NCBI GenBank assembly: GCA_029098265.1
Contig: JAQXNZ010000051.1
Span: 1 to 47,215, forward strand
Direction: 5' to 3'
DNA: 47,215 nt
Source of the DNA: Clostridia bacterium
GTDB taxonomy: Bacteria; Bacillota; Clostridia; Lachnospirales; Anaerotignaceae
Shown here: piece by piece, positions 9,577 through 33,929 of the stretch
Layout of the letters: every line of letters starts with the position of its first letter
Numbering within the stretch: position 1 is the first letter of the stretch
The notes under the pieces: model-generated
Told to the model about the DNA's origin: nothing
Database searches by the model: none
The model's input: the letters and a program-made list of their open reading frames with translations, nothing else
Made by a program: the position numbers and the translations under genes

Positions 9577-10730
9577 GGGTGATGCTTATGATAAAGAGGA
9601 CAGCCGCCGTTATAACGGTGATATTATCGCTGGCTGTACCGTTTGGAGTATATGCGGCGGAAAAGGGCGGCTCTGAAACAACAATAGAGGATGTTGCTGA
9701 TATGTTCGGACTGTCCGAGGCTGACAGCGGACTGGAGTCAATAGCCGATGAATACGGTCTGGAGGATTTCAGTCTGAGGGAAACAGCGCTGGATATAGTC
9801 AGCGGCAATTATGATTTCAGTGTGAAAAACATAGTTGGAACCATATTTAAGGCCGCACTGGGACAGGCGGGCGGCGTACTTCACACGATGAAAAGAATAA
9901 TGGTGCTGGTGCTTCTGGCGGCGGTAACGGAAATGCTGTCGTCATCATTTTCATCGGGAGGAGTGAGCAAGCTCGGCCAGTATGTGTGCTCGGCTGTGCT
10001 TGTTATGACTGTCATGCAGTCCTTTTACTATGCGGCGGAGACTGTGACCGATGCCGTACAGAATATTTCCGATGCGTCAAAAACACTTCAGCCCGTATAT
10101 ATGCTCATTATGACGGCGAGCGGACGGGCGGCAAAAATGTCTGCGGCTGTTCCTGTGCTGTATGCTTCGGCTTCGGTGCTGAATTTCATTGTGGGGCGGC
10201 TGGTTGTACCGGGAATACTTTTTGCGGCACTTATTACATTTATAAACTGTATGTCCGAAAGGGACATGCTTATGGAACTGGCTGACCTCATGGGCTTTAT
10301 ATGCAAATGGAGTGTAAAGCTGTGTGCAGGTGCCTTTGTGTTTGTCATGTCCCTAATAAAAATCGGCGTGCCCGATGTGGCGGTCATAGCGGGCAAGTCC
10401 ATAAAGACTGCGGCAGAGGCGGTGCCCGTTGTGGGAAGCCTTATGTCATCGGCGGCGGAGACTGCGGCGGCTGTGACGGGAGCAATGGGAAACTCCGTAA
10501 CAGCGGCGCTGATGATATTCATTGTGCTTGTAAGCATAATGCCTGTCATAAGGCTGGCGCTTATAATGCTTGTCTATAAGCTGACGGCGGCGCTGACAGA
10601 GCCTGTTGCGCCCAAAAGGATAGTGAAATGCATATCCAAGGCGGCGGACTATACGGCGGTGCTGACGGGTGTGGTGTTTACGGCGGAAATAATGTTTATA
10701 ACGGTGACGGCACTTATGCTGTCAGTATGA
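9573..10730 (+). CDS. spoIIIAE: Stage III sporulation protein AE
   Basis: 385 aa multi-TM with signal peptide; operon position. Confidence 0.93.
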   Translation: MRVMLMIKRTAAVITVILSLAVPFGVYAAEKGGSETTIEDVADMFGLSEADSGLESIADEYGLEDFSLRETALDIVSGNYDFSVKNIVGTIFKAALGQAGGVLHTMKRIMVLVLLAAVTEMLSSSFSSGGVSKLGQYVCSAVLVMTVMQSFYYAAETVTDAVQNISDASKTLQPVYMLIMTASGRAAKMSAAVPVLYASASVLNFIVGRLVVPGILFAALITFINCMSERDMLMELADLMGFICKWSVKLCAGAFVFVMSLIKIGVPDVAVIAGKSIKTAAEAVPVVGSLMSSAAETAAAVTGAMGNSVTAALMIFIVLVSIMPVIRLALIMLVYKLTAALTEPVAPKRIVKCISKAADYTAVLTGVVFTAEIMFITVTALMLSV

Positions 10731-10734
10731 ACAG

Positions 10735-11127
10735 ATGAAAGGATTTGACGGTATGTTTACGGCTTTGGACGCATATATAAAAAATATAGCCTTGCTTATG
10801 CTTCTGGCAATTTTTGCAGAGATGCTTCTGCCCGATGCTAAAATAAAAAAGTATGTTTCCGTTATAGTCGGGATAATGCTTATATTTACCGTAACGGGCA
10901 GGCTTGAAAGGCTGGCGGACTCCATAGAAAACGAGGACATATCACTGCCTGCCTTTGAAGAAAAGCAGGCGGAGAAAACAGAAAACGTCAGGGACAGACT
11001 GACGGATATATTATATGAAGAAATGAACGAAGTGGAGAATGAAAACGAAATTAACGGTGGACTTGACATTCATGTGGAGAGAGTAAAAGCTTTTGAAGAA
11101 AATACAAGGGGTGAAGTGGCACAATGA
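10735..11127 (+). CDS. spoIIIAF: Stage III sporulation protein AF
   Basis: Two N-terminal TM segments; operon position. Confidence 0.88.
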   Translation: MKGFDGMFTALDAYIKNIALLMLLAIFAEMLLPDAKIKKYVSVIVGIMLIFTVTGRLERLADSIENEDISLPAFEEKQAEKTENVRDRLTDILYEEMNEVENENEINGGLDIHVERVKAFEENTRGEVAQ

Positions 11128-12989: not shown

Positions 12990-13062
12990 GCTAAAGTGGC
13001 TCAGTTGGTAGAGCAGCTGATTCGTAATCAGCAGGTCGTGGGTTCGAGTCCCATCTTTAGCT
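12990..13062 (+). tRNA. tRNA-Thr (anticodon CGT)
   Basis: GCTAAAG/CTTTAGC acceptor, GCTC-AGTTGGTA-GAGC D arm, anticodon loop TTCGTAA, GTGGG-TTCGAGT-CCCAT T arm; no encoded CCA. Confidence 0.95.
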
Positions 13063-13429: not shown

Positions 13430-15508
13430 ATGAAAAGCTACACATCTAAAGAAATCAGAAATGTCGTTATGCTGGGTCACAGTGGTTCCGGTAAGACAAC
13501 AATAACGGAATCGTGCCTTTTTAAATCAGGTGCAACAAAGAGATTTGGCAAAGTTGACGAGGGCAACACCGTCAGCGACTATGACCCGGAGGAAATCAAA
13601 CGCCATGTTTCTATAAATACATCAATTCTTCCCGTTGAGTGGAAAGGAACAAAAATAAACTTCATTGATACTCCCGGTTATTTCGATTTCGCAGGCGAGG
13701 TTATGCTTTCAACAAAGGTTGCAGACGCAGCGGTTATCGTTGTATCAGGAAAAGCGGGTGTTGAAGTCGGCACAGAAAAGGCTTGGGAATATGTTGAGAA
13801 ATTTGAAACGCCCAGAATGTTCTTTATGAACTTCATGGACGATGAACATGCCGACTATGAGAGAGTTCTCGGAGAGCTTCGTGAGCATTTCGGAAAAACA
13901 GTTGCTCCCGTTCAGATACCCTTCTATGAGGGTGAGAAAATCCGTGGTTTCATCGACGTTATAACAAGAGAGCCTAAATATCTTGATGCTTCAAGAACAG
14001 GCTTCGAGCCCGGACCCTTCCCCGAGGATATGAGAGACGAGGTTGAAAGTCTCAGACAGATGATTATCGAAGTAGCCGCAGAAAGTGTTGATGAACTGCT
14101 TGAAAAATATTTTGCCGACGAAGAGCTTACAATTGAGGAAATATATGAAGGCCTCAATGTCGGTGTAAAGGAGAGAAAGATTGCTCCTCTTTTCACAGGC
14201 GCCGCAAATTACGGTCTCGGTATCATGATTCTTATGAATTCAATTAAAAACTTCCTTCCTCCTTCAGTAGAGTGCAAGCCTGAGTTTGAGTGTACAGACC
14301 TCAAGACAGGCGAGACTGTTATCAGAAAGAATGATGAGAGCGACCATTTCGCGGCATATGTATTCAAAACAATTTCAGACCCGTATATCGGACGTCTTAA
14401 TATATTCCGTGTTCTTTCCGGTAAGCTTACAAAGGATAAGCTCATATACAACCCTGAAAGGGATACAGAGGAAAAGATTGCCCATATCTATGTAATAAGA
14501 GGTAAAGAGCAGATAGAGGTAGACGAGCTTGATGCCGGCGATATCGGCGCCCTTGCAAAGCTCCAGAACACGGCTACACAGGATACGCTCTGCTCAAGCG
14601 TTAACCCTGTACAGGTAAGCAAGATTGAGCTTCCCGCTTCCGTATATTCACGCGCTATCGTTCCCAAGACAAAGGGCGATGACGATAAGGTTGCGGCTGC
14701 CCTTGTTAAACTCAGAGAAGAAGACCCTACTATCAAGGTAGAGGTAAACAAGGAAACAAAGCAGACACTTCTTTACGGTGTAGGCGACCAGCAGCTTGAT
14801 GTACTTATGAGCAAGCTGAAAACAAAATATAAGACAGATGCCGAGCTTATTGACGTTATAATCCCCTACAGAGAGACTATAAAGTCTAAAGTTAAGGTTC
14901 AGGGTAAATATAAGAAACAGTCAGGCGGACACGGTCAGTTCGGTGACGTATGGATGGAATTCGAGCCCTCAGGCGATATGAGCAAGCCTTATGTATTTGA
15001 AGAAAAGATATTCGGCGGCTCCGTACCCAAACAGTACTTCCCTGCAGTTGAAAAGGGACTTCAGGAGTGCGTAAACACAGGCGTACTTGCAGGCTATCCT
15101 GTAGTAGGTCTTAAGGCAACCCTTGTTGACGGTTCATATCACCCTGTAGACTCATCGGAAATGGCATTCAAGATGGCTACATCACTTGCTTTCAAAGACG
15201 GATGCTCAAAGGCTAAACCTACTATCCTTGAACCCATTGCACACATGGAAGTAGTTGTTCCCGAAAGATACATGGGAGATATCATGGGCGATATCAATAA
15301 GCGCCGCGGCAGAATACTCAGCATGGATTCAATTGACGGCGGAAAGAAATGCATCGTTGCGGAAGTACCTCTTTCAGAGATATCCAAGTACAGCATTGAC
15401 CTCCGTTCAATGACACAGGGCAGAGGCAGCTTCTCCTTCTACTTCGAGCGCTATGAGGAGGCTCCCGGAGATGTTCAGCAGAAGGTTATTGCTGACAGAG
15501 CAAAATAA
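13430..15508 (+). CDS. Elongation factor G-like translational GTPase
   Basis: GHSGSGKTTITES G1, DTPGYFDF G3, EF-G domain IV-like GGHGQFGDVWMEFEP; 692 aa. Divergence from canonical EF-G suggests an EF-G paralogue (FusA2 type). Confidence 0.9.
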   Translation: MKSYTSKEIRNVVMLGHSGSGKTTITESCLFKSGATKRFGKVDEGNTVSDYDPEEIKRHVSINTSILPVEWKGTKINFIDTPGYFDFAGEVMLSTKVADAAVIVVSGKAGVEVGTEKAWEYVEKFETPRMFFMNFMDDEHADYERVLGELREHFGKTVAPVQIPFYEGEKIRGFIDVITREPKYLDASRTGFEPGPFPEDMRDEVESLRQMIIEVAAESVDELLEKYFADEELTIEEIYEGLNVGVKERKIAPLFTGAANYGLGIMILMNSIKNFLPPSVECKPEFECTDLKTGETVIRKNDESDHFAAYVFKTISDPYIGRLNIFRVLSGKLTKDKLIYNPERDTEEKIAHIYVIRGKEQIEVDELDAGDIGALAKLQNTATQDTLCSSVNPVQVSKIELPASVYSRAIVPKTKGDDDKVAAALVKLREEDPTIKVEVNKETKQTLLYGVGDQQLDVLMSKLKTKYKTDAELIDVIIPYRETIKSKVKVQGKYKKQSGGHGQFGDVWMEFEPSGDMSKPYVFEEKIFGGSVPKQYFPAVEKGLQECVNTGVLAGYPVVGLKATLVDGSYHPVDSSEMAFKMATSLAFKDGCSKAKPTILEPIAHMEVVVPERYMGDIMGDINKRRGRILSMDSIDGGKKCIVAEVPLSEISKYSIDLRSMTQGRGSFSFYFERYEEAPGDVQQKVIADRAK

Positions 15509-15536
15509 ATATAAATTCAAATAAATTTATATACAG

Positions 15537-15567
15537 TCGGCTGTGCGTATGCACAGCCGATATTTTT
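15537..15567 (+). terminator. Intrinsic terminator after EF-G-like gene
   Basis: CGGCTGTGC-GTAT-GCACAGCCGATATTTTT. Confidence 0.85.
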
Positions 15568-15574
15568 GCACAAA

Positions 15575-15602
15575 AAAGTACCGAGCCGAAAACCTCGGTA
15601 CT
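15575..15602 (-). terminator. Intrinsic terminator of peptide locus A
   Basis: Minus strand AGTACCGAG-GTTTTCGG-CTCGGTACTTTTTT. Confidence 0.8.
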
Positions 15603-15610
15603 CAGTACTG

Positions 15611-15660
15611 AAAAGCTTTGCTTTCTCCGTTTGGGGAGAGCGGAGAAATTATTTATGGAT
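15611..15660 (-). ncRNA. Conserved 3' hairpin element of peptide locus A
   Basis: Minus strand ATCCATAAATAATTTCTCCG-CTCTCCCCAAA-CGGAGAAAGCAAAGCTT; related to 20172-20220 with different but compensating stem bases and a conserved CTMTCCCCAA loop. Confidence 0.55.
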
Positions 15661-15676
15661 ACTGCAAAACTTTATT

Positions 15677-15796
15677 TTATATGATAAGGGATATGAATTT
15701 TGCTGCTGCAGCGGCCGCTATACATATCAGGAGTGCTCCGTACACATATCCGGCAAGGCGGTTTGTCAAATCATATTCAGGTATATTGTTTTTCAT
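15677..15796 (-). CDS. Putative 39-aa single-transmembrane peptide
   Basis: MKNNIPEYDLTNRLAGYVYGALLICIAAAAAAKFISLII; RBS-like AAAGGGAGTG; 31 bp downstream of peptide A; below ORF-track length cutoff. Confidence 0.6.
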   Translation of the reverse strand: MKNNIPEYDLTNRLAGYVYGALLICIAAAAAAKFISLII

Positions 15797-15827
15797 AGTT
15801 ACACTCCCTTTCTGCGGCTGCATACTG

Positions 15828-15971
15828 TTATTTTTCAGTTATGTCTTTTACGTCAAATACAGCTTCGTTGCTGAAATCATGCTCTTTGTGATTTTTTCTT
15901 TTATCTTTTTTGCTGATACCGTTTAATAAATAGCTGACATCGAATGTAGTTGAATTTGTAAAGTGTCTCAT
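15828..15971 (-). CDS. Putative 47-aa small protein, paralogue A
   Basis: MRHFTNSTTFDVSYLLNGISKKDKRKNHKEHDFSNEAVFDVKDITEK; same length as, and 31/47 identical to, paralogue B; RBS AGAGGGGG. Confidence 0.8.
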   Translation of the reverse strand: MRHFTNSTTFDVSYLLNGISKKDKRKNHKEHDFSNEAVFDVKDITEK

Positions 15972-15991
15972 TGTGAATGCCCCCTCTGACC

Positions 15992-16050
15992 ATTGGTTCT
16001 ACCAATCCTTGTCTTGACTAAATGGTACTACCAATACGCTTATTTGTCAA
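15992..16050 (-). promoter_or_regulatory. Promoter of peptide locus A with tandem FadR/GntR-like operators
   Basis: TTGACA at 16045-16050, 17-nt spacer, TACCAT; palindromes ATTGGTAGTACCATT (16021-16035) and ATTGGTAGAACCAAT (15992-16006). Confidence 0.7.
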
Positions 16051-16095
16051 TAGCTTTTTTTAAATTTTTTAAAAATTTTTTCGTAAAAGGGCAAA

Positions 16096-16128
16096 ATAAA
16101 AAAAGTCCGGCTTAAAACAACGGACTTT
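16096..16128 (-). terminator. Intrinsic terminator downstream of thi cluster / candidate ncRNA
   Basis: Minus strand AAAGTCCG-TTGTTTTAAGC-CGGACTTTTTTT. Confidence 0.8.
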
Positions 16129-16412
16129 ACTGCTTTCGTAGGTCAACAGTATAAACAAAAAACATCATAGCTATGCTGTAAGGCTTTTTCTCAATACTGT
16201 TATCGGCAATCATAATGAAATGGGAGAACGAGTCCCAAACAGCGTTCTCCCGAAAATTCTAAGACCTCCAAAGGGTCATTTTCATAAAAATTCGGTCGAA
16301 ACTTCATGGTCTCCTCTCACGCCGGAACACGGCTTCCCATCGCTGTTTGTTTCCGCAGAGCCCAAGGCGCTCCCCTTTTGCCCTCCTGACTTAAGCAGGC
16401 ATATATAAATAT
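16096..16412 (-). ncRNA. Candidate structured non-coding RNA, about 300 nt
   Basis: Dense complementary segments: AACAGTAT..ATACTGTT enclosing CATAGCTATG; GGGAGAACG..CGTTCTCCC; AGACC..GGTCT; GGAAGCCGTGTTCC; GCGCC..GGCGT; ends in an intrinsic terminator; no convincing ORF on the minus strand. Confidence 0.55.
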
Positions 16413-16432
16413 TGTCGGAAAACTCATTGATA

Positions 16433-17032
16433 TTATTTGTTTACTTTAAGTTCCTTCATCATTGCTTTTACATCGCTGCATTTCATAAAGCCGCTCATTA
16501 TGCAGGCACCTTTCGCACCGGCATCAATTACCTCGGCTATATTTCTTTCGCTTATGCCGCCAATGGCATAGACGGGTATTGAAACACTTTTACACACATT
16601 CCGTAAAAAATCCAGACCTCTGGGGGCCACGCCTTTTTTGCAGTCCGTGGCAAAAACATGTCCTGCTGTAATATATGTACATCCGAGACTTTCGGCTTCT
16701 TTTGCTTCATCGACAGAATGGCAGGACGCACCGACGATTTTAAAATTCTTTTTCTTATTCTCGTCCATGCTTCTTAACACATGCATGGGAAGATGTATTG
16801 CCTCTGCTTTCAGTTGAATGGATGTCTCAATAAAGCTGTGGAGTATGCAGGTCACATCGTATTTACTGCATATACCGATAGCTTGGGCGGCAAGAGCCCT
16901 GTATTTGGCTTCCTCCATGTCTTTTTCTCTGAGGATTATTCCCTTTGGGCGGCAGGACGCAATTTTTTCTATTCTTTCAAGAAAATCATCTTCGCAGAGA
17001 GCACGGTTTGTTACGCATATAATATCAGACAT
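16433..17032 (-). CDS. thiE: Thiamine phosphate synthase / TenI-like
   Basis: CxVTNRxLC N-terminus, HLPMHV, GHVFATDCKKGVAPRGL, VYAIGGISERN; last gene of thi cluster; start refined to MSDIICVTN. Confidence 0.82.
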   Translation of the reverse strand: MSDIICVTNRALCEDDFLERIEKIASCRPKGIILREKDMEEAKYRALAAQAIGICSKYDVTCILHSFIETSIQLKAEAIHLPMHVLRSMDENKKKNFKIVGASCHSVDEAKEAESLGCTYITAGHVFATDCKKGVAPRGLDFLRNVCKSVSIPVYAIGGISERNIAEVIDAGAKGACIMSGFMKCSDVKAMMKELKVNK

Positions 17033-18278
17033 AAAGATAATCATTCAGTACAGGCTGCAGACCTTCTGCCGACATGTCCTCATACATTTTGTTGAAGCTC
17101 CTGCTGTCGTTTATCTCGAACTGCTCATCGCCCTCCGTACCGTCTGCCTCCTTTCCGGTGTACTTGCTTTCGTGGTCACCGATACCTGTCGAAACGCCTG
17201 CCGATACTTTTGTGGCTGCTATTTTGGCAATGCCGTCTCGGAACGATGCGCTTTCCCTTGAGGACACCGTTATACCTACATAGGGCAGGAAAATACGGTA
17301 TGCGCATATAATCTGACAAAGCTGTTTTTCGCCTACGTCCAGAGGATTTATCTTTTCGTTATTTATGATAGGCCTCAGTCTGGGGCAGGACAGTGACATT
17401 TCGGCATGGGGATATTTTCTCTGGAGATAATATACATGCAGTGCACTTGCCAATGCGTCCTTTCTGAAATCCGAAAGACCGAGAAGGGCGGAAAATGCTA
17501 CGCCTCTCATACCGCCTCTGAGCGCTCTCTCCTGGGCGTCGAAACGGTAGGGCCATACACGCTTATGTCCCATAAGGTGCAGAGTTTCATACTTGTCTGT
17601 ATCGTAGGTTTCCTGGAATACGGTAACATAGTCTGCGCCGCATTCGTGCAGATAACGGTATTCGTCAGTGTTTACGGGATATATTTCAAGACCTACCATA
17701 CGGAAGTATTTTCTTGCCAGCTTGCATGCCTCGCCGATATATTCAACATTGCTCATGGAACGGCTTTCGCCCGTAAGAATAAGTATTTCCTCCATGCCGC
17801 TGTCGGCGATGACCTTCATTTCCTTTTCTATCTGTTCCATACTGAGCTTCATTCTGTTTATATGGTTGTAGCAGTTGAAGCCGCAGTATACGCAGTAGTT
17901 CTCACAGTAGTTGGCTATGTATAACGGTGTGAAAAGATATACAGTGTTGCCGAAGTGCTTGCTTGTTTCCATTCTTGCTCTCTGGGCCATCATTTCAAGG
18001 AAAGGCTCGGCGGCGGGGGAGAGCAGTGCTTTAAAATCCTCTATTGAGCATGTCTCATGTTCCAAAGCCGCTATAACGTCCTTGGCTGTATACTTTGAAT
18101 AGTCGAAGCTGTTCATCTGATCCATAACGGTTTTGCATACGTCGGACTCTATTATTTCCATGCCGGGCATATACTCCATGTGGTTCTTTCTGACAGCCGG
18201 ATTTGTTTCAAGCTCATGCTTTTTGGCAAGGGCCGCCGGAGAAAGATATTCGGAGTCTACAAAAAACTGATTTTCCAT
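17025..18278 (-). CDS. thiH: 2-iminoacetate synthase ThiH (radical SAM)
   Basis: CxxxCxYCGF (CENYCVYCGFNCYN) radical SAM motif, ILILTGES; cluster context; start refined to MENQFF. Confidence 0.93.
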   Translation of the reverse strand: MENQFFVDSEYLSPAALAKKHELETNPAVRKNHMEYMPGMEIIESDVCKTVMDQMNSFDYSKYTAKDVIAALEHETCSIEDFKALLSPAAEPFLEMMAQRARMETSKHFGNTVYLFTPLYIANYCENYCVYCGFNCYNHINRMKLSMEQIEKEMKVIADSGMEEILILTGESRSMSNVEYIGEACKLARKYFRMVGLEIYPVNTDEYRYLHECGADYVTVFQETYDTDKYETLHLMGHKRVWPYRFDAQERALRGGMRGVAFSALLGLSDFRKDALASALHVYYLQRKYPHAEMSLSCPRLRPIINNEKINPLDVGEKQLCQIICAYRIFLPYVGITVSSRESASFRDGIAKIAATKVSAGVSTGIGDHESKYTGKEADGTEGDEQFEINDSRSFNKMYEDMSAEGLQPVLNDYLYV

Positions 18279-18290
18279 TTCTATCACCCC

Positions 18291-19067
18291 TTAGTCATGC
18301 AAAAAGCCTGTCAGAGGGTCGGAAGCGGAAGCGCCTCTTACAAGTACACGGCCTATACCCGAAAGATATGCCTTTCTGCCTGCTTCAATGGCCTGACGGA
18401 ATGCCGATGCCATAAGAGGAAGATTGCCTGCTGTTGCAAGGGCAGTGTTTGCCATAATAGCCGCAGCACCCATTTCCATTGCTTCGCATGCCTGCGATGG
18501 TCTGCCGATACCTGCATCTACGATAATGGGCAGGTCAATTTCATCTATAAGTATCTGTATAAATTCCTTTGTAGCCAGACCTTTGTTGGAGCCTATGGGT
18601 GAGGCAAGGGGCATAACTGCCGCCGCACCTGCGTTTACAAGGTCACGGGCAACGTTAAGGTCGGGATACATATAGGGCATTACTACAAAGCCTTCCTTGG
18701 CAAGTATTTCTGTGGCCTTTATTGTCTCATAGTTGTCGGGAAGAAGATATTTGCTGTCTCTCATTATCTCTATCTTGACAAAATCACCACAGCCCAGCTC
18801 CCTTGCAAGACGGGCAATACGAACGGCCTCCTCGGCATTTCTTGCACCCGATGTGTTGGGGAGAAGTGTAACTCCCTTGGGTATGTAGTCCAGTATGCTT
18901 TCGTTGTCCTTGGTGTTTGCACGGCGGACAGCGAGGGTAATAATTTCAGCGCCTGCGTCTCTAACGGCAGACTCTATAAGCTTAAGTGAATATTTTCCGG
19001 AGCCGAGTATAAATCTTGAGTTAAACTCGTGGCCTCCGATTATGAGTTTGTCATCATTGTTGTTCAT
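18291..19067 (-). CDS. thiG: Thiazole synthase
   Basis: [42 protein letters not shown] motifs. Confidence 0.96.
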
Positions 19068-19085
19068 AAAATGCCTTCTTTCTTT

Positions 19086-19724
19086 TTATGGTTCCTGATT
19101 TCCGGAAAGGAGCCTTATGACCATCAGAGCCTCATGGGCGGCACAAATCATTACACGGGGAGCAACAAGGCTTATATTATTAGCCACATCGCTTACACCG
19201 TCTCCGCACAGATAAAAATTCTTTGTTATCCTTTTTGTGCTTATGGTGTTTGCGGAGTCCAATCCTGCCATACCGGAAGCTGCAACGAGATATTTTGTAT
19301 TCAGTTTTTCCAATACGCCGTTTACAAGCATTGCTTTGGCTTCGGCATTGTCAAAGGCCTCACATATTACATCCGCCTCTGACAGCAGCTCTTCAAAGTT
19401 GTCATCGGTTATTTTGACTGTATGGGTCTTAAGCTCAACATAGGGGGCAATCTCTTTCAGGTTTTCTGCAAGAGCTTCTGTTTTATACATGCCTATCTGT
19501 GACGCCTTGTACTGCTGACGGTGAAGATTGGTGATGGCCACTCTGTCATAGTCAATCAGTATCAGCTTTCCTATGCCTGCTCTGGACAGGGCAATTGATA
19601 TGTTGGAGCCCAGTCCGCCAAGACCGCATACAGCAACGGTGCTGTTTTCAAGCTTTTCCTGAAGGTCCTTTCCCTGGCGCTTTATGAGCGCTTGCTGCAT
19701 TTCTTCTTTCGAGGGAATTCCCAT
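19086..19724 (-). CDS. thiF: Sulfur carrier protein ThiS adenylyltransferase
   Basis: GLGGLGSNISIALSRAGIGKLILIDYDRV, E1-like family; adjacent to thiS. Confidence 0.93.
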   Translation of the reverse strand: MGIPSKEEMQQALIKRQGKDLQEKLENSTVAVCGLGGLGSNISIALSRAGIGKLILIDYDRVAITNLHRQQYKASQIGMYKTEALAENLKEIAPYVELKTHTVKITDDNFEELLSEADVICEAFDNAEAKAMLVNGVLEKLNTKYLVAASGMAGLDSANTISTKRITKNFYLCGDGVSDVANNISLVAPRVMICAAHEALMVIRLLSGNQEP

Positions 19725-19725
19725 A

Positions 19726-19920
19726 TCAGCCGCCTCCTACAAAGCTTACTACTTCAACCGTATCCTCATCGTTTAAAACAGTTTTGCCATACTCGGCCTT
19801 CGGTACAATCTCGCCGTTGCGCTCAACTGCTATACGTTTGGGGTCATAGGACGTAGTCTCAAGATATTCTGCCAGTGTCTTTCCTGCGATATCATATTCT
19901 GTCCCGTTGATTTTAACCAT
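19726..19920 (-). CDS. thiS: Sulfur carrier protein ThiS
   Basis: 64 aa ending in VSFVGGG (C-terminal GG). Confidence 0.93.
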
Positions 19921-19941
19921 GTTTTCACCTCCTCAGCAACT

Positions 19942-19972
19942 AAAAAAGGAACCGCCTTGATTTGGCAGTTCC
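19942..19972 (-). terminator. Riboswitch expression-platform terminator
   Basis: Minus strand GGAACTGCC-AAATCAA-GGCGGTTCCTTTTTTAG between TPP aptamer and thiS. Confidence 0.85.
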
Positions 19973-19984
19973 TATGCTTTCTTT

Positions 19985-20085
19985 GATTCCAGGCATTCCT
20001 ACGTTGGCATTATCCAAATCAGGTTAAATGGGTCGAAGGTCATACCTTCCTCTCAGCCTGTAACACAAGCCCCCCCGCTGTTTTA
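19985..20085 (-). promoter_or_regulatory. TPP riboswitch (THI box)
   Basis: Minus strand GGCTGAGAGG...GACCC..TTAACCTGATTTGGATAATGCCAACGTAGGAA. Confidence 0.95.
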
Positions 20086-20140
20086 TTAAGTTGCAAGTAT
20101 TATTATATAACCGGTTTCGTCAAAATACAAGGTTTTTGTA

Positions 20141-20173
20141 AATTAAAATGCCGGCTGTCAGCCGGCATTTAAG
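20141..20173 (-). terminator. Intrinsic terminator of peptide locus B/C
   Basis: AAATGCCGGCTG-ACAGCCGGCATTTTAATTT on the minus strand. Confidence 0.7.
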
Positions 20174-20220
20174 CTTTGTGCCTTTCTGTTGGGGATAGCA
20201 GAAAGAATTATTCATAGATT
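20172..20220 (-). ncRNA. Conserved 3' hairpin element of peptide locus B/C
   Basis: Minus strand ATCTATGAATAATTCTTTCTG-CTATCCCCAA-CAGAAAGGCACAAAGCTT; counterpart of 15611-15660. Confidence 0.55.
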
Positions 20221-20264
20221 TATAACTTTACATAAGTAAGTATTATCTGATATTGCACCAAATA

Positions 20265-20408
20265 TTATTTGTTCATCATATCTTTAACATCGAACATTGC
20301 TTCGTTGGAGAAGCTGTGGTCTTTATGATGATGTTTTGTTTCTCTCTTATTATCACCGTTAAATAAGTAGTTAACGTCAAAAGTTGTTGAATTTGTAAAA
20401 TGTCTCAT
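20265..20408 (-). CDS. Putative 47-aa small protein, paralogue B
   Basis: MRHFTNSTTFDVNYLFNGDNKRETKHHHKDHSFSNEAMFDVKDMMNK; RBS AAAGGCGG; 35/47 identical to paralogue C. Confidence 0.8.
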   Translation of the reverse strand: MRHFTNSTTFDVNYLFNGDNKRETKHHHKDHSFSNEAMFDVKDMMNK

Positions 20409-20463
20409 ATGGATACCGCCTTTCATAAAATCGAATTAAAAAACTACAGTTAACACGATTAAA

Positions 20464-20607
20464 TTATTTGCCCATCATATCCTTAATATCGAACATTGCC
20501 TCGTTTGAGAAGCTATGCTCTTTGTGGTTTTGTCTTTTTTCTCTCTTGTTGGCGCCATTGAATAAGCAGTCGACGTCGAATGTGTTTGATTTAGTAAAAT
20601 GTCTCAT
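20464..20607 (-). CDS. Putative 47-aa small protein, paralogue C
   Basis: MRHFTKSNTFDVDCLFNGANKREKRQNHKEHSFSNEAMFDIKDMMGK; RBS AAAGGCGG. Confidence 0.8.
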   Translation of the reverse strand: MRHFTKSNTFDVDCLFNGANKREKRQNHKEHSFSNEAMFDIKDMMGK

Positions 20608-20633
20608 ATAAATGCCGCCTTTCTATATTATTT

Positions 20634-20692
20634 ATTGGTTCTACCAATTCTTATCTTGAATATATGGTACTACCAATCTATATATTTGTCAA
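20634..20692 (-). promoter_or_regulatory. Promoter of peptide locus B/C with tandem FadR/GntR-like operators
   Basis: TTGACA (20687-20692), 17-nt spacer, TACCAT; ATTGGTAGTACCATA (20663-20677) and ATTGGTAGAACCAAT (20634-20648); same architecture and 29-bp centre spacing as locus A. Confidence 0.7.
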
Positions 20693-20784
20693 TACTTTTT
20701 TAGAAGTTTTTTTAAAATTTTTTCGACAGTTAAAAATAGGCATATAAGTATGGAAACAGGGCAGGGAAAGCGGCTCTAAACACA

Positions 20785-20814
20785 AAAAGGCACGGAAATC
20801 AGTTCCGTGCCTTA
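20785..20814 (-). terminator. Intrinsic terminator of yebC-like gene
   Basis: Minus strand AAGGCACGGAACTGATTTCCGTGCCTTTTTG. Confidence 0.85.
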
Positions 20815-20831
20815 GCAAGAATTATATTTAA

Positions 20832-21560
20832 TTATTCATCCCAGTTGTGGTATACATTCTTAACGTCATCGTCATCATCAAGCATATCCAGAAGCTTGTT
20901 CATCTTTTTGATATCTTCATCGCTGTTAAGAACTGTGTATGTCTGAGGAACCATTGTAACCTCTGCACTTGCCATAGGGATTCCGGCAGCCTCAAGAGCC
21001 TCTCTTACGGCCTCGAAATCATCGGGAGCAGTTGTTATCTCATAGCTGTCCTCCTCAACACCAAAGTCCTCGGCACCTGCTTCAACAGCTGTCATCATAA
21101 GCTCGTCCTCGTCCATATCGACTTCTTCCTTATCGATAACTATAAGACCCTTTTCATCAAACATGAAAGATACACAGCCGCTTGTTCCCATATTTCCGCC
21201 GCCCTTTGTGAAAGCGTTTCTTACGTTTGCCGCAGCTCTGTTTCTGTTGTCTGTAAGAACCTCAACAATAATTGCAACGCCGTTGGGGCCGTATCCTTCG
21301 TAGGTGATTGATTCATAAGTAACGCCGTCGCCTGCGCCTGCAGCTTTTTTGATGCTTCTGTCGATAGTATCATTGGGCATGTTGTTGGCCTTTGCCTTGG
21401 CGATAACCTCACGAAGCTTACCGTTGTTATTGGGATCGGGACCGCCTGCTTTTACTGCAACAGCGATTTCACGGCCTATCATAGTGAATATTTTTCCCTT
21501 AGCCGCATCGTTTTTCTCTTTTTTATGCTTAATATTAGCAAACTTTGAATGTCCGGACAT
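20832..21560 (-). CDS. YebC/PmpR family regulatory/translation protein
   Basis: [26 protein letters not shown], conserved YebC N-terminus. Confidence 0.96.
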
Positions 21561-33571: not shown

Positions 33572-33645
33572 CATGGTATTTAAACTAGATTTTTCTTGAC
33601 AATACCGATAAATGTGCTAAAATTATGTCATTGTTTATAATAACC

Positions 33646-33929
33646 AACAGCTGTGATGGCGAAAAGTAGTCATAAGCTCCTTCCCAGAGAGAGGACGTCA
33701 CCGCATTCGGCGGCGGCTGAAATCGTCCTTGCTGCAGAGATTATGATGAAGTTCCCGCCGGAGCTTGTCGGCTGAACCGTTCTGATGTGAACCAGTAGGC
33801 TGATACGTTATCCGCACGTTACGCGGACGCACTGTGAAAGCAGTGTTGCTGAGAGCCTGCCTTGTGCGGGAATCAGGGTGGTCCCGCGGATTTATGCTCC
33901 GTCCCTATTCGGGACGGAGCTTTTTTGTT
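33646..33929 (+). promoter_or_regulatory. T-box leader, Phe specifier (TTC), with terminator
   Basis: GGGTGGTCCCGCGG T-box sequence, GAAGTTC specifier context, terminator GCTCCGTCCC-TATTC-GGGACGGAGCTTTTTT; directly upstream of pheS. Confidence 0.93.

Follow-up and report, generated by a model that had tools for sequence, protein, structure and literature searches.

What is controlled by a pair of FadR-type operators embedded in a promoter, when the surrounding DNA encodes no regulator to read them? The question is raised by locus A, on the minus strand of the 47,215-nucleotide (nt) stretch analysed here (the window; contig C51 of genome G000, 2.14 Mb). The original prediction gave this promoter a TTGACA-N17-TACCAT core, one palindrome over the −10 element and a second downstream, both of the FadR-subfamily type. 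We found these elements as described: TTGACA at 16050–16045 and TACCAT at 16027–16022 (promoter 16022–16050), ATTGGTAGTACCATT across the −10 (operator 1, 16035–16021) and, 29 bp downstream of it, ATTGGTAGAACCAAT (operator 2, 16006–15992). Motif searches confirmed that the operators conform to a TNGT-N3-ACNA palindrome. The FadR-subfamily consensus reads TKGT/ACMA, the gap being 3 nt in the case of LldR and PdhR, and the FadR-subfamily operators used for comparison also include TNGTNNNACNA.

Tandem operators and a genus-restricted regulon

The window holds a second, near-identical promoter/operator unit, absent from the original prediction, at 20634–20692 on the minus strand (locus B). Here a pattern search placed TTGACA-N17-TACCAT at 20664–20692, and motif searches placed operator 1, ATTGGTAGTACCATA, at 20663–20677 and operator 2, again ATTGGTAGAACCAAT, at 20634–20648. 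The sequence TGGTNNNACCA occurs four times in the window, as two pairs, against 0.63 occurrences expected, a count reached in 0 of 100 shuffles; allowing up to two mismatches, the motif gives seven matches (both strands of four sites) against 0.48 expected. Predicted FadR-type operators lying across the −10 fit with repression. Upstream of locus A, the intergenic region at 16205–16425 (minus strand) has no Rfam match, and a structured RNA there was rejected because the region folds no better than its shuffles (z-score 0.00).

We compared G000 with three congeners: G042 (Candidatus Metalachnospira gallinarum), G043 and G044 (Anaerotignum sp. MSJ-24). Genome-wide, TTGACA-N8-12-TGGTNNNACCAT has four matches in G000, three in G042 and two in G044. 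Reversed-pattern controls have none in the searched genomes, and neither does G043, the fourth congener, which lacks an orthologue of the regulator described below. The genome scan proposed with the original prediction therefore yields a non-random distribution of the operator–promoter unit; a random one had been named there as speaking against it. All nine promoters of the three genomes share one register, with a second operator 25–31 bp further on, a variable spacing that suggests two separately bound dimers and not one rigid assembly. Short open reading frames (ORFs) lie downstream of all nine. Judged from sequence comparison, these operators are real and part of a small regulon found in a single gut-bacterial genus, Anaerotignum/Metalachnospira. 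Single sites away from the peptide loci, such as C85:3567 and C87:13055, have no TTGACA in register and were left out of the regulon. A third, apparently decayed promoter/operator unit, AATGGAAGTACCATT, is found in G042 at about L071:5163–5195 (minus strand), with no obvious ORF downstream.

Short peptides and a candidate GntR regulator

Both window loci encode short predicted peptides on the minus strand. At locus A, ORF A1 (15828–15971) specifies a 47-residue peptide, MRHFTNSTTFDVSYLLNG...FDVKDITEK, with paralogues and orthologues under the same promoter type, and ORF A2 (15677–15796) a 39-residue hydrophobic one, probably a single-helix membrane peptide, whose only relatives are in G042 and G044, behind promoters of the same kind. 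Locus B carries two further 47-residue relatives of A1, B1 (20464–20607) and B2 (20265–20408). Members of this FDV family have about 47 residues, two FDV motifs and almost no cysteines; those of the hydrophobic family have 34–42 residues. The ratio pN/pS is 0.16–0.24 among A1, B1 and B2 (0.16 for B2 against B1), with silent sites near-saturated, and 0.23–0.50 for A1 against its paralogues and orthologue; other pairs reach 0.92. The low ratios point to purifying selection on the FDV peptides. The evidence that the FDV frames are coding is thus good within A1/B1/B2 and weaker across other pairs, and we predict that they are translated. No peptide scored above cut-off against Pfam or NCBIfam. Among 392 genomes of the order, both families were found in the three operator-bearing genomes only, apart from one marginal FDV match (E 8.6e-4) inside a long open frame.

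Other features lie around these loci. Short peptides with a TEQPKERRY motif are present in the clusters of G000 contig C22 (L024:10016–10192 and 10665–10808, minus strand), under the same operators, and of G044 (an orthologue in L035). A MATE-like transporter gene, identified by eye, is divergent from the peptide cluster in each case (L024 from about 11280 and L035 from about 7520, both plus strand). In the window, the peptide loci flank a stretch with apparently thiamine-type genes and a TPP riboswitch (19977–20086, minus strand); elsewhere it contains a T-box leader (33644–33909) and a tRNA-Thr gene (12990–13062), both on the plus strand.

In agreement with the original prediction, we found no GntR regulator in the window: the regulator search gave 13 matches in G000 and none on contig C51. 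The GntR/FadR gene that it proposed to look for was found on another contig, next to a paralogous operator/peptide cluster. There, on C22 (L024:8724–9443), a 239-residue GntR-FCD protein adjoins two operator/peptide units. Its N terminus is a GntR helix–turn–helix (PF00392, 1.1e-18, 67 bits against a cut-off of 27) and its C terminus an FCD ligand domain (PF07729, 6.2e-14, 52.9 bits against 24.3). Residues D159, H163, H209 and H231, which we take to be metal ligands, are invariant in three orthologues. The orthologues in G044 and G042 match at 58–61%, against only 28% for the best match in G043 (distant paralogues); that of G044 lies beside the orthologous peptide cluster and that of G042 on another contig. 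The nearest solved structure is 2di3 (E 1e-19), which is LldR of C. glutamicum (PMC4494728). Because the protein falls below the NCBIfam LldR equivalog cut-off (74.8 bits against 311), we call it LldR-like and do not class it as LldR. We infer from this protein's position and domains that it binds the operators, and from its relatedness to LldR and PdhR that its ligand would be lactate, pyruvate or a related carboxylate. A weak site, ATTTGTAGCACCAAT, upstream of the GntR gene in G000 is compatible with autoregulation. Genes for a radical SAM protein (L024:7181–8080, minus strand) and an HxlR-type regulator (L024:8203–8553, plus strand) lie near the GntR gene, and the same contig carries a 6S RNA gene (L024:3909–4099, plus strand).

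3′UTR segments antisense to a lactate-permease start

On comparison of the peptide 3′UTRs, we noticed a common ATCCATGAATAATT-like stretch. Searched exactly and genome-wide, the pattern derived from it has one place in G000 and in G044, and in G042 one besides the UTR; in each of the three genomes, this place is the start of one permease gene, in antisense. As the pattern came from the UTRs, their own matches hold by construction and the permease start is the new information, with the qualification that the three permease matches are not independent, the permease leaders being orthologous. A wobble-tolerant target pattern likewise has one perfect match per genome in the three genomes, the permease start. 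The ranking of targets across the genome rests on these pattern searches and on 93 gene starts; a 14-mer search with two mismatches, AT-rich, was uninformative.

The permease belongs to Pfam Lactate_perm (254.7 bits against a cut-off of 27); its substrate is presumed, because it misses the curated cut-off of NCBIfam LctP (TIGR00795; 249 bits against 341). Its leaders carry hairpins with GGGG loops and have an identical GGAGGAATTATTCATGGATAT and an invariant TTTGGGGA loop in all three genomes, the stems being altered on both sides (14 predicted pairs with double-sided changes). In G000 only, a TGTGGTAATACCACA palindrome at L101:2083, between the permease gene and a divergent peptidase-like gene, is a possible direct GntR site.

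In total, the 3′UTRs of five operator-driven transcripts carry 12–24 nt antisense to the Shine–Dalgarno/start region of this gene. The locus A segment, AGUAUCCAUAAAUAAUUUCUCC (15642–15663, minus strand), pairs over 22 nt with one mismatch (−28.6 kcal/mol), and that of locus B, AUCUAUGAAUAAUUCUUUCU (20200–20219, minus strand), over 20 nt with no mismatch and three G–U pairs (−28.2 kcal/mol). Ungapped pairing reaches −32.2 kcal/mol for C22a of G000 and −30.9 kcal/mol for C23a of G042. For each of these four, 0 of 1,000 shuffles did as well, and 0 of 93 other gene starts pair as well with the segments. The segment of G044 has 12 nt only and −18.8 kcal/mol, equalled by 3 of 1,000 shuffles and 1 of 93 other gene starts. 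Significant pairing to the permease start was not found in four other 3′UTRs (C22b of G000, G044_b, and C13 and C23b of G042). In some transcripts, part of the anti-start segment lies within a fold, with an opening cost of 1–11 kcal/mol, and accessibility-corrected pairing totals −8.7 to −15.2 kcal/mol. Complementarity to the ribosome-binding site of a trans target beyond chance, as demanded of a dual-function RNA, is thus found here, and these RNAs are predicted to pair in the cell.

A second match accompanies the first. In four of the five transcripts (A, B, C22a and G044), the antisense segment is followed by a hairpin with a CCCCAA loop; C23a of G042 has the segment without this loop. At locus A, the C-rich loop CUCUCCCCAAA (hairpin 15622–15648) matches the GGGG-loop hairpin of the permease leader, and locus B has a predicted hairpin with the C-rich loop GCUAUCCCCAA (20182–20205). 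Transcripts would end at an intrinsic-terminator-like hairpin with a T run, identified by a terminator scan at locus A (15576–15603), and at a terminator-like hairpin recognized by its sequence and not flagged by the scan at locus B (20146–20170); all four features are on the minus strand. The CCCCAA hairpins have 8–9-bp stems of differing sequence, a length attained by shuffled flanks in 69–95 of 5,000 trials. Statistical support for the loop contact is modest: in G000 the loops add 10–13 nt of pairing with the leader and 6–12 of 500 shuffles are as good; for G044 the figure is 46 of 500. The C13 transcript of G042 pairs instead with G-rich sequence farther upstream in the leader (1 of 500 shuffles).

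Predicted control of lactate uptake and its alternatives

We propose that a FadR-subfamily, LldR/PdhR-like GntR repressor, whose gene lies outside the window, occupies the tandem TGGT-N3-ACCA operators and stands in the way of RNA polymerase at the locus A, locus B and paralogous promoters. It would be released by a ligand, for which lactate, pyruvate or a related carboxylate is the likeliest candidate, and derepression would yield short mRNAs encoding one or a few peptides of about 30–60 residues. In most of these transcripts the 3′UTR would pair in trans with the LctP-family permease mRNA, a AUCCAUGAAUAA-type segment covering the Shine–Dalgarno sequence and start codon, and, again in most, the C-rich hairpin loop would contact the G-rich loop of the permease leader. 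With the Shine–Dalgarno sequence and AUG both covered, translation of the permease is predicted to be repressed when the peptide genes are derepressed, which would limit carboxylate import; the sign of regulation is thus a prediction, as would be any role of the peptides. Feedback limiting lactate or a related acid would be the simplest reading. That an LldR/PdhR-like repressor controls dual-function mRNAs, specifying small peptides and trans antisense RNAs against lactate uptake, seems to us reasonably likely. The fuller version, in which multicopy GntR-repressed mRNAs silence the permease through both the anti-start segment and the C-rich loop and the peptides work on that same step of uptake or fermentation, we offer tentatively, at somewhat less than even chances.

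The loci might instead be ordinary small-peptide operons, their UTR match the non-functional relic of an inverted permease-leader copy later duplicated with the peptide genes. An inverted copy should resemble the leader antisense in two places, and the UTRs do so, at the hairpin and at the ribosome-binding site. Yet the two matches are adjacent in the UTR and tens of nucleotides apart in the leader, the UTR stems are wholly different although the anti-start segment and CCCCAA loop have been kept, many of the changes within the segment leave it paired through G–U, and no permease coding sequence was seen beside the UTRs; we judge such an origin unlikely. Another possibility is that the peptides are the point, as exported signals, bacteriocins or unmodified precursors that would leave the cell through the divergent MATE-like transporter. 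They are multicopy, the transporter gene is divergent from the cluster in both G000 and G044, and in G000 the radical SAM gene is about 1.8 kb away from the peptide cluster. However, they display no obvious leader/core pattern, no family match and, in the FDV family, almost no cysteines; no such transporter was seen immediately beside loci A and B in the window, and the antisense tails would go unexplained, so that we give this quite a small probability.

The 13 regulator matches in G000 leave room for a GntR paralogue other than the one adjoining the C22 cluster to read the operators, but only the C22-adjacent orthologue group both adjoins clusters and occurs in precisely those three genomes that have the operators and the peptides, which makes a different reader distinctly improbable. 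Least probable, in our estimation, is action in the reverse sense, with the permease mRNA titrating the peptide transcripts, or with pairing stabilizing or activating the permease mRNA: pairing by itself is directionless and the permease leader is itself strongly structured, whereas covering the Shine–Dalgarno sequence and start codon is the classic layout of translational repression (SgrS/ptsG). At the thresholds used, G043 (83% complete) yielded neither the peptides nor the GntR orthologue nor the permease; with four genomes compared, their co-occurrence is only suggestive.

The proposed repressor-controlled, dual-function arrangement has parallels elsewhere. Enteric SgrS/SgrT combines an ORF for a peptide of ~40 residues, a pre-terminator segment complementary to the ribosome-binding site of a carbon-uptake gene, and a dedicated regulator (PMC4021124). 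Peptide ORF upstream, anti-RBS segment before the terminator and a (predicted) dedicated regulator recur here, but in a different phylum, with no sequence relationship detected, a predicted GntR-type repressor in place of SgrR-type activation, several paralogous transcripts and a second, loop–loop match. The SgrS RNA family has no match in the window at the gathering threshold and, within positions 15500–21000, none even with E allowed to reach 1, so that the likeness is one of workings only. In Vibrio cholerae, the dual-function RNA VcdRP encodes a 29-residue protein and inhibits carbon-transport mRNAs through a base-pairing part that needs a run of four cytosines (PMC8672173); it is CRP-repressed with PTS targets, whereas here the main match is to the Shine–Dalgarno/start region and the CCCC, in a hairpin loop, is a second site. 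FarS, also of V. cholerae, is a 3′UTR-encoded small RNA from a FadR-family-controlled transcript that represses a metabolic target (PMC9438474). It shares with our prediction a 3′UTR RNA under a FadR-family GntR regulator, but RNase E releases it from the fabB mRNA, and fabB is activated by FadR, whereas we predict repression of very short mRNAs. For RoxS and FsrA of Bacillus subtilis, the available portion of the published account describes C-rich single-stranded regions that bind Shine–Dalgarno sequences, a lowering of LutP (lactate permease) protein on RoxS overexpression, and lutABC as a predicted target (PMC10433868). The pairing predicted here is long and specific to one gene, and that portion mentions neither peptide families nor GntR operators. 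The FadR-type GntR regulators LldR and GdhR control lactate-permease genes, GdhR binding just downstream of the lctP start site (PMC6957213); they act at the permease promoter, whereas the route predicted here runs through RNA.

Processed 3′UTR-derived small RNAs are fewer in Gram-positive bacteria, according to a review (PMC9438474). Within the openly available literature, covered in part, we found no comparable system in Firmicutes. Dual-function RNAs are, to our knowledge, few, and the best-known examples that serve here for comparison are gammaproteobacterial. Close relatives of the genus include the lactate fermenters of Anaerotignum that use the acrylate pathway. If our reading is true, these loci would form a natural series of dual-function mRNAs, paralogous as well as orthologous, that share one predicted target in lactate uptake, one member of the series being from a named isolate open to experiment, and short ORFs that match neither Pfam nor NCBIfam would gain a plausible role.
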